This document shows positions 9,493-39,946 of a stretch of 64,000 nucleotides of DNA, in pieces. Source of the DNA: Colwellia sp. BRX10-3 (GTDB taxonomy: Bacteria > Pseudomonadota > Gammaproteobacteria > Enterobacterales > Alteromonadaceae); assembly GCF_014077505.1 (NCBI RefSeq), contig NZ_JACGWA010000001.1:310001-374000 (forward strand), read 5' to 3'. The stretch's first letter is position 1, and each line of letters begins with the position of its first letter. A model generated the notes under the pieces. That model made no database searches. It was not told the origin of the DNA and saw nothing but the letters and a program-made list of their open reading frames with translations. Made by a program: the position numbers and the translations under genes.

Positions 9493-10606
9493 GCTGTATT
9501 TCCTTAAGAATTGCAGATGGAAAGCTTTCAAGCGACAGTGATAATTCAGATATTCCAGCAACCGCTACCGCTTGGGGCATGCCATATACAACACAAGACT
9601 CTTCATCTTGCGCCCATATGGTGGCACCTTTACTTTTTAATAATCGTGAACCTTCACGACCATCGGCACCCATTCCGGTTAATATAATGCCTAAGACATT
9701 GCCGCCAAATATTTTAGCAGCAGAAGCAAAACTAACATCTACACTAGGCTTGAAAGCAATCCGCTCCGAATTGTCTTCGAGTATTCTTAGTTTTGCTGCA
9801 TTTTCTGTACCATCAATGACCATTTGTTTGCCACCTGGTGCTAAATAGGCATGACCAGGTTTTAAAATATCGCCAGAACTCGCTTGTTTTACATTTATTT
9901 TGCACAGACTATTTAATCGGTTAGCAAAAGCTAAGGTAAATGCCGCAGGCATATGTTGCACTATAACGATAGGCAACGGGAAATCTTCTGGTAATTGAGT
10001 TAATAATTTTTGTAACGCGACAGGCCCGCCAGTTGAAGTGCCTATTGCTAATAGCTTGTATTCTTTACCTGAGCTTTTTCTGTGCGTAGCGCTTTGGCGG
10101 GAGCTAACTGCTGAACCGGAGTTTGCACTAGATGCTTGATTTACAGTAGCTTTCGCTTCAACCGATGCGCGTGAGCGAAAGGTTGAAATTCGCGGTAAAT
10201 TAGCGCCTTTTTTTCTTGCTAATAGCCTTACTCGCTGACGTAACAAACTACCGGCGTCTTCAGTATTTTTCGCTATTTCATTAAATTTTTTCGGCAGAAA
10301 GTCTAATGCACCAGCATCAAGTGCTTCAAGCGTTGCTTGAGCGCCAGAGTGGGTTAAGGAAGAAAACATAATAATGGCTGTTGGTGCTTTTGCCATGATT
10401 TGTTTCACCGCGTCAATGCCATTTAATAATGGCATTTCTATATCCATGGTTATAACATCAGGTTTTAAGGCTATAGCCTTTTCTACTGCGTCTAAGCCAT
10501 TAATAGCGACGTCGATCACCTCGAGATCAGGATCATTATTGAGGATATCTGTTACTCTGCGGCGAAAAAAACTGGAGTCATCAACCACCAATACTTTAAA
10601 GGACAT
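9485..10606 (-). CDS. cheB: chemotaxis response regulator protein-glutamate methylesterase CheB
   Basis: A 373-residue two-domain protein that demethylates and deamidates chemoreceptors. The receiver domain (about 1-120) has the acidic pair at 9-10 and the phospho-acceptor Asp55 in MDIEMP. The C-terminal methylesterase carries the catalytic triad motifs: GTSTGGP (Ser), VIVQHMP (His) and ILTGMGADG (Asp). A Ser/Ala-rich linker of about 45 residues joins them. It follows cheA by 45 bases and overlaps motC. CheR, its opposing enzyme, is encoded about 46 kb away near cheV. Confidence 0.97.
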
Positions 10607-36843: not shown

Positions 36844-38322
36844 TTAGCTGGCTTTTTGTAAGTTATATTTGCGCATTTTCTCTACCAAAGTAGTACGGCG
36901 CATACCTAAAAGTTCGGCAGAACGAGCCACAACCCAATCATTTTTACCTAAGGCTTGGTTAATCAACGAAATCTCTAGCTCAGCTAAATACTCTTTTAAA
37001 TTGAGGCCATCATTTGGCAAAACATCGACTGTTTTACCATTAACAGCAATAGCGTTTTCTGCGCTAATTTCATCGGCATCATCATCTTGGTCGTCATAAT
37101 CAAAACCTGAAAACAATTCATTAATCGCTTCACGTTCTTGCAACTCTTCAGGATATTCAGGTTGATAGTCTTCTACATCTAAGTGGCGGTACTTTAACGG
37201 TAATTGTCCAACATTAACCACCTGTTCTCCATACATGATAATCATACGTTCAATTAAATTAGACAGTTCTCTAACATTACCGGCCCAAGGGTGTTCTTTT
37301 AGCGATTCAACAGCTTTTTCAGTAAAACGCACTGACTGCCTTTGCTCGGTAGAAAAACGAGAAATCAGCTCTTGTAACAATAGCGGAATATCTTCTTTTC
37401 GCTCTCTCAGCGCAGGTGTTTCAATAGGAAAAACATTGAGTCGATAGTAAAGATCTTCACGAAATTGATTAGTTTTAATCATGTTTTCTAAGTGCTGATG
37501 CGTCGCGGCAACAATTCGCACGTTAGCTTTTATACTTTTAGAACCACCTACGCGCTCAAACGTCCGCTCTTGTAACACACGTAATAATTTTACTTGCATT
37601 GGTTGTGGCATATCACCAATTTCATCAAGAAATAGTGTGCCACCTTCAGCCATTTCGAAGCGGCCTTTACGGGTGGAAATAGCGCCAGTAAAAGCGCCCT
37701 TCTCATGACCAAACAATTCACTTTCTAGTAATTCTGCTGGAATAGCACCACAGTTAACAGGAACAAAAGGACCTTTACTTCTCTCTGATAAATTATGAAT
37801 ATTGCGCGCAACAACTTCTTTACCCGTCCCAGATTCACCTAAGATCAACACATTAGCTTCGGTGCAGGCAACTTGTTCAATTAAAAATCGAACTTGTTGC
37901 ATGGGCTCACTTGTACCCACCAAGGAGCGAAATAATGAGTTCGGACGATTAACTCCTCGTTTAGAAGGCAGGTTATTATGATATTGATGACTGTGATGTA
38001 CTAATTCGGTTAATTGCGCATAATTTAGCGGTGTGGTTAATTCACCAATAACATTGACGTAGCCATTGAGTTGTTTTTTATCAATTATGTCATGATAAAT
38101 AAATGGGCAAGCCGGCTGAGATTTAATAATATTTTGTAATTTTGAGGAAATATCACCACATAAAATAATGGTAAGAATATTAGGGATTTCAGCTATGTGT
38201 TTATCAATTTCATCTTCAGCAAGAACATGGAAATTTTCACCAACAAAGGCTAAAACTGTTTCTATTTGATGGCGTCTTGCTGCGTCGTTATCGACGACTA
38301 GAATATGTTTTTGCCCTTGCAT
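36844..38322 (-). CDS. flrA: flagellar master regulator FlrA (FleQ)
   Basis: A 492-residue sigma-54 activator at the top of the flagellar hierarchy. The N-terminal FleQ domain (about 1-120) is receiver-like ([12 protein letters not shown]) without an obvious phospho-acceptor. The AAA+ domain has GESGTGKE, the GAFTGA loop and [10 protein letters not shown]; the C-terminal Fis helix-turn-helix is [25 protein letters not shown] choose the second ATG, 6 bases after AAGGG. An upstream in-frame ATG (38337) arises from a 15-bp duplication and has no ribosome site. FlhG and, in Pseudomonas, cyclic-di-GMP modulate this family. Confidence 0.96.
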
Positions 38323-38506
38323 ATTATGCCCTTGCATTTTTTATTGCTGTATTTTTTGTCATTGTTATATGGTTGTTTTGTCATTACTATTTTATTGTGT
38401 AGCGTGCTGACAAAAGTATTTGTTATTTTAAGCTTTATCTATTATTAACTTGCTGTAATGAATAATCAACAATAAATTGACGCTAATATGTCATTTTATT
38501 GTCAGT

Positions 38507-38533
38507 TAAAGCAATAATAAAGCCTGCCGATAA
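38507..38533 (+). promoter_or_regulatory. sigma-28 (FliA) promoter, consensus match
   Basis: TAAA (38507-38510), 15 bases, then GCCGATAA (38526-38533): an exact match to TAAA-N15-GCCGATAA. Transcription would start near 38541 and run toward the 94-residue ORF, fliS and fliT, or end at the hairpin at 38619-38658. Confidence 0.75.
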
Positions 38534-38618
38534 AGAGGAAGGTTAGAAAATCAGTTAGCAATTAAAGTATCACCTAAACAAGTTATTAAATTAACAATTA
38601 AATCAATGTCAAAAATTT

Positions 38619-38658
38619 AACGACTAAACTCAACTTAAACTTAAGTCATAGTCGTTTT
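38619..38658 (+). other. terminator-like hairpin downstream of the sigma-28 site
   Basis: Outer stem AACGACTA/TAGTCGTT and inner stem ACTTAA/TTAAGT, followed by TT after the stem. The stem is AT-rich and the T-run short, so termination is uncertain. With the upstream promoter it would delimit an RNA of about 120 bases. Confidence 0.4.
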
Positions 38659-38737
38659 AGTAAGCTCGATATTTACATATTAAGATAAACGCTTATATTT
38701 CAGCAAAATACTAACAATTGTTCAACTTAGATAAAAA

Positions 38738-38754
38738 GTGGCATGAAATGAGCT
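38738..38754 (+). promoter_or_regulatory. sigma-54 promoter candidate for the 94-residue ORF
   Basis: GTGGCATGAAATGAGCT has GTGGCA and the GG-N10-GC spacing; the -12 box reads GAGC rather than TTGC. It is 69 bases before the ORF start. Confidence 0.55.
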
Positions 38755-38822
38755 TATCAAAAAACACTATGCTTCAATTAACCTTTAAATTGAAGCTACA
38801 TTAAATTTAATAGGAATATCCA

Positions 38823-39107
38823 ATGTTAATTATTAACGGTACGGCTGAGCTTATGAATAACAGTAACAACTTGAACAAAGGCGACAGATACGAGTTCAAT
38901 ATGTTCTCATTAAATATGCCGCTAGAAGACCAACTTGCGCAAATAGAAGACTACTTAGTCACCCGTGGTTGGGACAATATTGAAGTCGCCAATAACGGTA
39001 TTATTGAAGATCCAAGTGAAATTCAGCACGAAGTGTTGCTAAGCGCATACGAAAAAGCTAAAAGCGAAGGTTATGCTGTAACCATTAATAACCAAGCTTT
39101 AATATAA
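38823..39107 (+). CDS. unknown 94-residue protein in front of fliS, behind flagellar-type promoters
   Basis: I do not recognise this protein. It is acidic, with no signal peptide, membrane segment or cysteine. The first 30 residues look flexible and Asn-rich (ELMNNSNNLNKGDRYEFN). The rest (NMPLEDQLAQIEDYLVTRGWDNIEVANN, then HEVLLSAYEKAKSEGYAVTINN) looks like a small alpha/beta fold. AGGA lies 7 bases before the ATG. fliS follows after 72 bases on the same strand. A sigma-28 and a sigma-54 site precede it. Position suggests a flagellar export, chaperone or regulatory role, but this is inference. Confidence 0.8.
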   Translation: MLIINGTAELMNNSNNLNKGDRYEFNMFSLNMPLEDQLAQIEDYLVTRGWDNIEVANNGIIEDPSEIQHEVLLSAYEKAKSEGYAVTINNQALI

Positions 39108-39179: not shown

Positions 39180-39578
39180 ATGACTCACGCGTCATTAAAA
39201 AAATATCAACAAGTTAACAAAAGTACCGCTCAAGAAGCTTCGCCTTATCAGTTAGTTGCTATGTTATTTCAAAAGTTACTCGATAACATTGCTACGGCTA
39301 AAGGCGCGATTACACAAAAAAATTACGCTAAAAAAGGTACTGAGTTATCAAATGCCATTGCCATTATTGGGGTGTTAGAGTCTTCGCTTGATTTTAAACA
39401 AGGTGGAGAAATATCCAATAACTTAGCATCTATCTATCTTTTTTGCTCAGAACAATTGCTCGCTGCTAGCGTTGACAATGATATAGATAAACTTAACGAA
39501 GTGGCGCAAATATTAATTCCTATAAAGTCAGGCTGGGACGAAATTCCGGTTGAGAATCATGAAAAGGTAAGTTTCTAG
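39180..39578 (+). CDS. fliS: flagellin export chaperone FliS
   Basis: A 132-residue helical chaperone that binds the flagellin C-terminus before export. The start KKYQQVNKSTAQEASPYQLVAMLFQKLLDNI is diagnostic of FliS. GGAG lies 8 bases before the ATG. Its TAG stop shares a base with the GTG of the next gene. Usually fliS follows fliD; here it is on the opposite strand and converges with fliD. Confidence 0.94.
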   Translation: MTHASLKKYQQVNKSTAQEASPYQLVAMLFQKLLDNIATAKGAITQKNYAKKGTELSNAIAIIGVLESSLDFKQGGEISNNLASIYLFCSEQLLAASVDNDIDKLNEVAQILIPIKSGWDEIPVENHEKVSF

Positions 39579-39946
39579 TGGTGTTAAACGCTGTTGAAAC
39601 TTTAGACGATATTATCGGCGTATCTGAAATGCTGCTTAAGCTTTTAGTTACGTCGGATATAGAAAGTACAAAGTCGATACCTGAATTGTACAACCAACCC
39701 GATGAGAGCCCTGCTGATACAGATAAACTATGGAAACTAATTGCGAAAAGAGAAAAAAAAATTCACCAATTATTTGAAAATTTTAGTAGCGAAGAATTAC
39801 AATTACACCAGGTAAAGCTGCAAACGATGGCAGCGCTAGACACCCAACTCGTCGACAAAGTAAACCGTACTCAAAAATCAGCAAAATCTAAAATTTTAAA
39901 ACTAAAGCAGAATAAAAAAGCAATCAGCCTTTACCAAAAGCTGTAA
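39578..39946 (+). CDS. fliT: FliT-like chaperone candidate
   Basis: A 122-residue, mostly helical protein starting at GTG (AAGG about 11 bases upstream), overlapping the fliS stop by one base. It has the size and helical nature of FliT, the FliD chaperone. The basic end (RTQKSAKSKILKLKQNKKAISLYQKL, in part) resembles FliT/FlaI-type proteins of marine gammaproteobacteria. Sequence identity to FliT is too weak to be sure by eye; position directly after fliS is the main argument. Confidence 0.7.
   Translation: MVLNAVETLDDIIGVSEMLLKLLVTSDIESTKSIPELYNQPDESPADTDKLWKLIAKREKKIHQLFENFSSEELQLHQVKLQTMAALDTQLVDKVNRTQKSAKSKILKLKQNKKAISLYQKL

Follow-up and report, generated by a model that had tools for sequence, protein, structure and literature searches.

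X94, an unnamed family of small proteins that probably belongs to the FlrA/sigma-54 tier of flagellar genes

We analysed a 64,000-nucleotide stretch of Colwellia sp. BRX10-3 DNA (hereafter, the window) that contains, among flagellar genes, an ORF for a 94-aa protein, here given the working name X94; labels starting with G, L and g are handles for genomes, loci and genera, respectively. The assignment of X94, as an undescribed gene, to the flagellar FlrA/sigma-54 tier is well supported on sequence grounds, and its membership in the FlrA/sigma-54 regulon is very probable: judging from its upstream elements, X94 seems to be turned on in step with early flagellum genes, also in species whose copy has moved to another part of the genome. 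A sequence-only reading of this DNA had proposed an undescribed flagellar gene; a conserved sigma-54 site and the flagellar neighbourhood of 43/65 copies speak for that proposal, whereas for the link to FliS, FliT or flagellin that went with it, we found no support as a necessary one.

The X94 gene, its distribution and its neighbours

The ORF of 94 codons predicted at this locus, with a ribosome site (AGGA) upstream, is there as claimed (Table 1). Given the low dN/dS among close relatives (0.035-0.178 among 8 sequences, with 25/28 pairs computable), X94 is a real protein-coding gene, and the family alignments have a conserved core in common. The product was described as acidic, which is true of the protein in the window (pI 4.16) but not of the family, because pI spans 4.05 to 8.59 over 65 sequences. 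By eye, X94 is a small protein in which neither a signal nor a membrane segment is obvious. AlphaFold2, run twice on 9 close sequences, gave poor models both times (mean pLDDT 47-49) and no usable fold; the second model, of low confidence like the first, consists of three strands and two helices, such that X94 looks alpha/beta rather than all-helical. In the leader, at 38771-38796, there is a 9-pair hairpin that a scan scored as terminator-like on the minus strand.

The earlier statement that the protein falls into no recognised family stood up to library searches: Pfam, NCBIfam, PHROGs, PADLOC (three X94 proteins scanned) and PDB sequences yielded no credible match, and family searches detected no sequence similarity to chaperones of the FliS, FliT or FlgN type. 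DUF6509 gave weak matches only, in 4/19 members (best E=0.03). Searches of plasmids, phages and viral contigs with the window X94 and one cassette protein (see below) found nothing, and the titles and abstract openings of the open-licence literature searched do not name the protein.

Table 1. Features of the X94 locus in the window
Feature	Coordinates	Strand	Basis
flrA/fleQ-type sigma-54 activator, divergent neighbour	36844..38337	-	PF06490 E=5.2e-24, PF00158 E=9.3e-76
FleQ/FlrA-like box AACAATAAATTGAC	38468..38481	+	2 mismatches; conserved block
FleQ/FlrA-like box GACAATAAAATGAC	38490..38503	-	2 mismatches; conserved block
Sigma-28 site TAAAGCAATAATAAAGCCTGCCGATAA	38507..38533	+	exact TAAA-N15-GCCGATAA
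FleQ/FlrA-like box GTCAAAAATTTAAC, upstream of the sigma-54 site	38608..38621	+	GTCAAAAA identical in the window and 10/10 aligned relatives
Sigma-54 -24/-12 site GTGGCATGAAATGAGCT	38738..38754	+	GG-N10-GC in 10/10 aligned relatives; family-wide survey
X94, 94-aa protein, unnamed family	38823..39107	+	ORF call, homologues, dN/dS
fliS, 72 nt after X94	39180..39578	+	PF02561 E=1.2e-34
fliT-like gene, overlapping the fliS stop	39578..39946	+	PF05400 E=0.008, below cut-off

In the window, flrC, flrB and flrA on the minus strand are followed by X94, fliS and the fliT-like gene on the plus strand and, beyond these, by fliD, flaG, two flagellin genes, flgL and flgK on the minus strand. Of these gene names, FlrA, FliS and FlaG have the backing of family searches, and the others are read from the translations. 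Thus, the position of X94 before fliS-fliT was borne out as far as gene order goes, although the FliT label is weak, its match lying below the cut-off.

A profile of X94 matches 66/395 sampled genomes of the family, with one copy each, in 13/52 genera. In an order-wide sample, 7/394 genomes match, six of them from the same family and the seventh, from another family, marginal and with stop codons; in a class-wide sample of 369 genomes, the sole match is the genome of the window itself. A scan of genome contigs produced 8 loci, all named Colwellia or Cognaticolwellia. The set used for context and tree comprises 64 fetched relatives and the window, that is, 65 copies; L102 (G417), with no ORF of at least 60 aa, was left out. 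In the tree, X94 of G013 (L029) groups with the g25 and g38 copies rather than with those of its own genus, a position that suggests transfer of the module.

Neighbours were surveyed in fetched stretches that reach roughly 8 kb to either side of X94, or not as far where a contig ends. The homologues do not lie mainly outside flagellar loci: 43 of the 65 copies have a flagellar neighbourhood, comprising 41 with flrA as a neighbour and those of G420 and G429, beside fliS at contig edges. The arrangement relative to flrA varies, and in eight of the 41 a flagellin gene separates it from X94. In 35 of the 65 copies, fliS follows X94 directly. Eight flrA-linked copies have no adjoining fliS: X94 adjoins flrA with no fliS alongside in G049, where a polysaccharide-biosynthesis gene comes next after it, and in G139, and lies between flrA and flrB in five g30 genomes and G047. 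In these flrA-flrB intervals (L031, L086-L089, L091), X94 is on the strand opposite to both genes, and L087 and L091 contain an additional ORF between flrB and X94. For the other 22/65 copies, no flr or flagellar structural gene was found in the fetched stretch; these come from g13 (4), g46 (3), g48 (1) and g18 (11), along with three cassette copies.

The sigma-54 site and FleQ/FlrA-like boxes

The promoter originally read as GTGGCA-N5-GAGC is indeed a sigma-54-like site (GG-N10-GC), with a spacer of N6 rather than N5. The bare pattern TGGCAY-N7-GCW is unremarkable (5 occurrences in the window vs 2.7 expected); the site carries weight because GG-N10-GC is kept in 10/10 aligned relatives while the flanks diverge. 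G013, which is of the same genus but outside that alignment, has GA at -12. We surveyed the family with a simple in-house weight scheme (maximum 21, threshold 16, 30-170 nt upstream). The threshold was reached by 52/64 relatives; the corresponding rates were 4.4% for dinucleotide shuffles and 15.1% for 570 other genes of these loci, among which true sigma-54 flagellar genes are included. Each of the 19 stand-alone chromosomal copies passed, as did 33/42 copies in flagellar loci, but 0/3 cassette copies. In seven of the nine misses in flagellar loci, this element is there but reads GA at -12, and the upstream regions of G139 and G047 have nothing clear as a sigma-54 site. The standard site is present in 9/13 genera, the related regions not being independent, and occurs in genera on either side of the midpoint root of the X94 tree, which is built from few columns and rooted for drawing only.

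The available text of PMC6120874 gives a FleQ consensus, GTCaNTAAAtTGAC, and its KT2440 form, GTCAaAAAAtTGAC, and states that the motif is a poor predictor of FleQ sites, even in Pseudomonas; a FleQ pseudopalindrome is described also in the accessible part of PMC10723142. In the window, there are 8 FleQ-like matches with 2 mismatches vs 2.6 expected. The GTCAAAAA block is located 165-216 nt before the X94 start in the window and the ten aligned relatives, and the AACAATAAATTGAC box may serve flrA, X94 or both. Across the family, a FleQ-like box scoring at least 9.5 anywhere upstream was detected for 26/64 copies vs 2.4% of shuffles and 14.7% of control genes, a modest general enrichment.

In g13 and g46, where X94 is unlinked from the flagellar locus, the sigma-54 site is followed at 23-24 nt by a box in 7/7 copies (scores 9.5-10), against a null of 0.6% per region at 9.5 or above; altogether, 8/52 regions tested contain such a downstream box, namely, these seven and G049, at 26 nt. 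The same layout characterizes fliE promoters, with a box at 22-23 nt in 4/5 loci that have a listed fliE site (scores 9.0-9.5 in the window, L175, L173 and L176; none in L036). For continued control of the unlinked copies by FlrA, this shared fliE-type layout is the strongest evidence. The flrA gene was found in 26/27 genomes checked; in G063, with a stand-alone X94 and a genome 85% complete, there was none above the cut-off.

We infer from these upstream elements FlrA control and early co-expression of X94 with basal-body genes. In the explanation that we favour, X94 acts as an accessory protein in the FlrA/sigma-54 (class II) tier of the polar flagellar hierarchy. From the FleQ-like boxes, bound FlrA would drive RpoN polymerase at the -24/-12 site, such that X94 would be produced along with early basal-body and regulatory genes; in the window, X94 would head a likely X94-fliS-fliT unit. 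The protein might then bind a partner and tune an FlrA-controlled step, with FlrA, FlrB or FlhG as candidates. Such a modulator is the likeliest role because X94 settles by flrA with or without fliS and also stands alone, but this is a guess that we offer tentatively, and the linkage with flrA could reflect only an insertion hotspot. Taken whole, with class II accessory protein and modulator of the FlrA step combined, the explanation has, in our estimate, about an even chance.

The sigma-28 site and the filament module

The exact sigma-28 motif reported upstream of X94 is present, and no other exact match occurs in the window, where 0.01 would be expected by chance. It precedes the X94 start codon by 289 nt, a distance absent from the earlier description. 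Both promoters that had been claimed are thus found in the window, but the sigma-28 one is patchily distributed among relatives. Among relatives with no flagellin gene between flrA and X94, 9/26 have a site with at most one mismatch, located 222-356 nt upstream of X94, and 17/26 have none. In eight loci (L029, L058, L061, L062, L068, L078, L079 and L081), the interval between flrA and X94 contains the gene for a third, long flagellin of 582-591 aa (621 aa in L081, with an uncertain start), which the window does not have; in 7/8 of these, a sigma-28 site with at most one mismatch ends 29-63 nt before the flagellin ORF.

Because the site precedes a flagellin ORF in those seven loci, that in the window may be left over from a lost flagellin. 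We read it as the promoter slot of the third flagellin, missing from the window, and it may still be in use; tblastn of the eight intervening flagellins against the flagellin-less intergenic regions gave chance-level matches and no remnant. Alternatively, the site is a genuine second promoter of X94-fliS-fliT that adds late expression. The exact match in the window and the near matches in nine flagellin-less relatives favour this possibility, which is compatible with FlrA/sigma-54 control as the main explanation; set against the seventeen relatives without a site and the proximity of the site to the intervening flagellin, it is a serious candidate that falls somewhat short of an even chance.

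The filament genes bear on a further alternative, that X94 aids filament assembly as an export chaperone or a co-factor of FliS/FliT, FliD or flagellin. Besides the position directly before fliS in more than half of the copies, the evidence in favour comes from the genus of the window, where 12/12 sampled X94-positive genomes have the window-type FliS and five X94-negative genomes (G001, G002, G004, G010 and G016) have another FliS (33-40% identical), FliD about 32% identical, shorter flagellins of about 270 aa and, near fliS, genes that by eye resemble sugar-biosynthesis genes. Since X94-positive and X94-negative genomes differ in FliS, FliD and flagellins, the filament module appears to switch as a block, and X94 with it. 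Comparison of L177-L182 with the window shows the type switch of the whole module (FliS, FliD, FlaG, flagellin size) within one genus.

Also in favour of this alternative, X94 is found across the family in 41/42 genomes with the window-type FliS vs 25/353 genomes without it, a co-occurrence whose p value ignores ancestry. The link between X94 and FliS is one-sided: 25/66 X94-positive genomes lack the window-type FliS. In G061, G172 and G122, flrA, fliS and the fliT-like gene are together and X94 is elsewhere; in G019, flrA and fliS are adjacent and there is no X94. The partnership with FliS/FliT is unsupported because X94 also occurs beside flrA without fliS, between flrA and flrB, off the locus and in cassettes. 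Together with the lack of matches to chaperone families, the unlinking of X94 from fliS in g13 and g46 and the sigma-54 site kept by stand-alone copies, this makes a role in filament assembly unlikely.

Cassette relatives and comparison with known systems

Three X94 relatives are flanked on both sides by attC-like sites: L085 in G413 (475-774), L090 in G154 (minus strand) and L035 in G050 (9934-10236). Their proteins form one tree group (support 100/99). In G154, there are six repeats with at least 83% identity to one reference, spaced 390-546 nt; G413 has several attC-like repeats along 5 kb; and in G050, just the two flanking sites are seen. When four of the flanking sites were folded as single strands of DNA, each gave a long, imperfect hairpin (z -2.9 to -6.7). 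The cassette assignment rests on flanking position, the repeat array and these hairpins because our ad hoc attC scans were less clear: a first folding scan found 6 sites in L085, 2 in L035 and 1 in L090 vs 0-3 in each of six ordinary loci and 0 in shuffles, and a complementary-arm scan recovered none of the L090 sites, four in L085 and both flanking sites of L035, with a background of 53 sites over 62 ordinary loci, or 0.27 per 10 kb. An integron integrase (TIGR02249 above cut-off) is encoded in all three genomes, on other contigs, but is not discriminating because 11/12 searched genomes have one. The genome of the window has such an integrase at G000:C11:2120-3067, and in G050, the X94 copy is preceded by a gene for a DUF7660 protein.

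The cassette relatives, found in three genera, the patchy presence of X94 and its several genomic settings are what one would expect of a passenger, that is, a general small accessory gene (for example, in stress or phage defence) that was captured by the flagellar regulon and so is made when flagella are; with the sigma-54 site kept on both sides of the tree root and in every stand-alone copy, and with PADLOC matching none of the proteins scanned, we consider this unlikely.

The FlrA-tier reading thus stays our preferred one, with the promoter signature, kept across genera, tying an unnamed family to this tier even off the flagellar locus. Flagellar genes that are accessory to the core set are difficult to recognise when neither position nor homology gives them away. 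The integron relatives suggest that a motility regulon can contribute components to the pool of cassettes. As a long shot, X94 might found a family of small, dispensable FlrA-circuit modulators exchangeable via integrons that keep a fliE-type promoter wherever they land; if so, a captured mobile X94 cassette could alter motility. The split of one genus into X94-positive and X94-negative genomes, coupled to the change of FliS, FliD and flagellin type, makes the role of X94 directly testable.

Among known systems, SO3234 of Shewanella oneidensis and flaI of Vibrio, between fliD and fliS, are similarly small, of unknown role and adjoining fliS; the likeness considered is in size and in the fliS neighbour, and these genes differ in their position on the fliD side and in length (106 aa). 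As far as the accessible text of PMC3120886 goes, deletion of SO3234 leaves full-length flagella and about 56% motility. In the available part of PMC5550985, fliTX of Xanthomonas oryzae is likewise reported as a flagellar gene regulated by RpoN2 and FliA, but it is FliT-type by name, whereas X94 has no FliT match. With the class II genes under FlrA/FleQ and sigma-54 (fliE, flrBC), X94 shares the sigma-54 site and, in part of its copies, a FleQ-like box, which has the same spacing as at fliE in two genera and is weak or absent in many other copies; it differs in having no named family, in being absent from most genomes of the family and in lying sometimes outside flagellar loci. Finally, the three relatives between attC-like sites resemble integron cassettes of unknown function, whereas the other X94 copies are single genes on the chromosome, mostly behind a sigma-54 site of their own.
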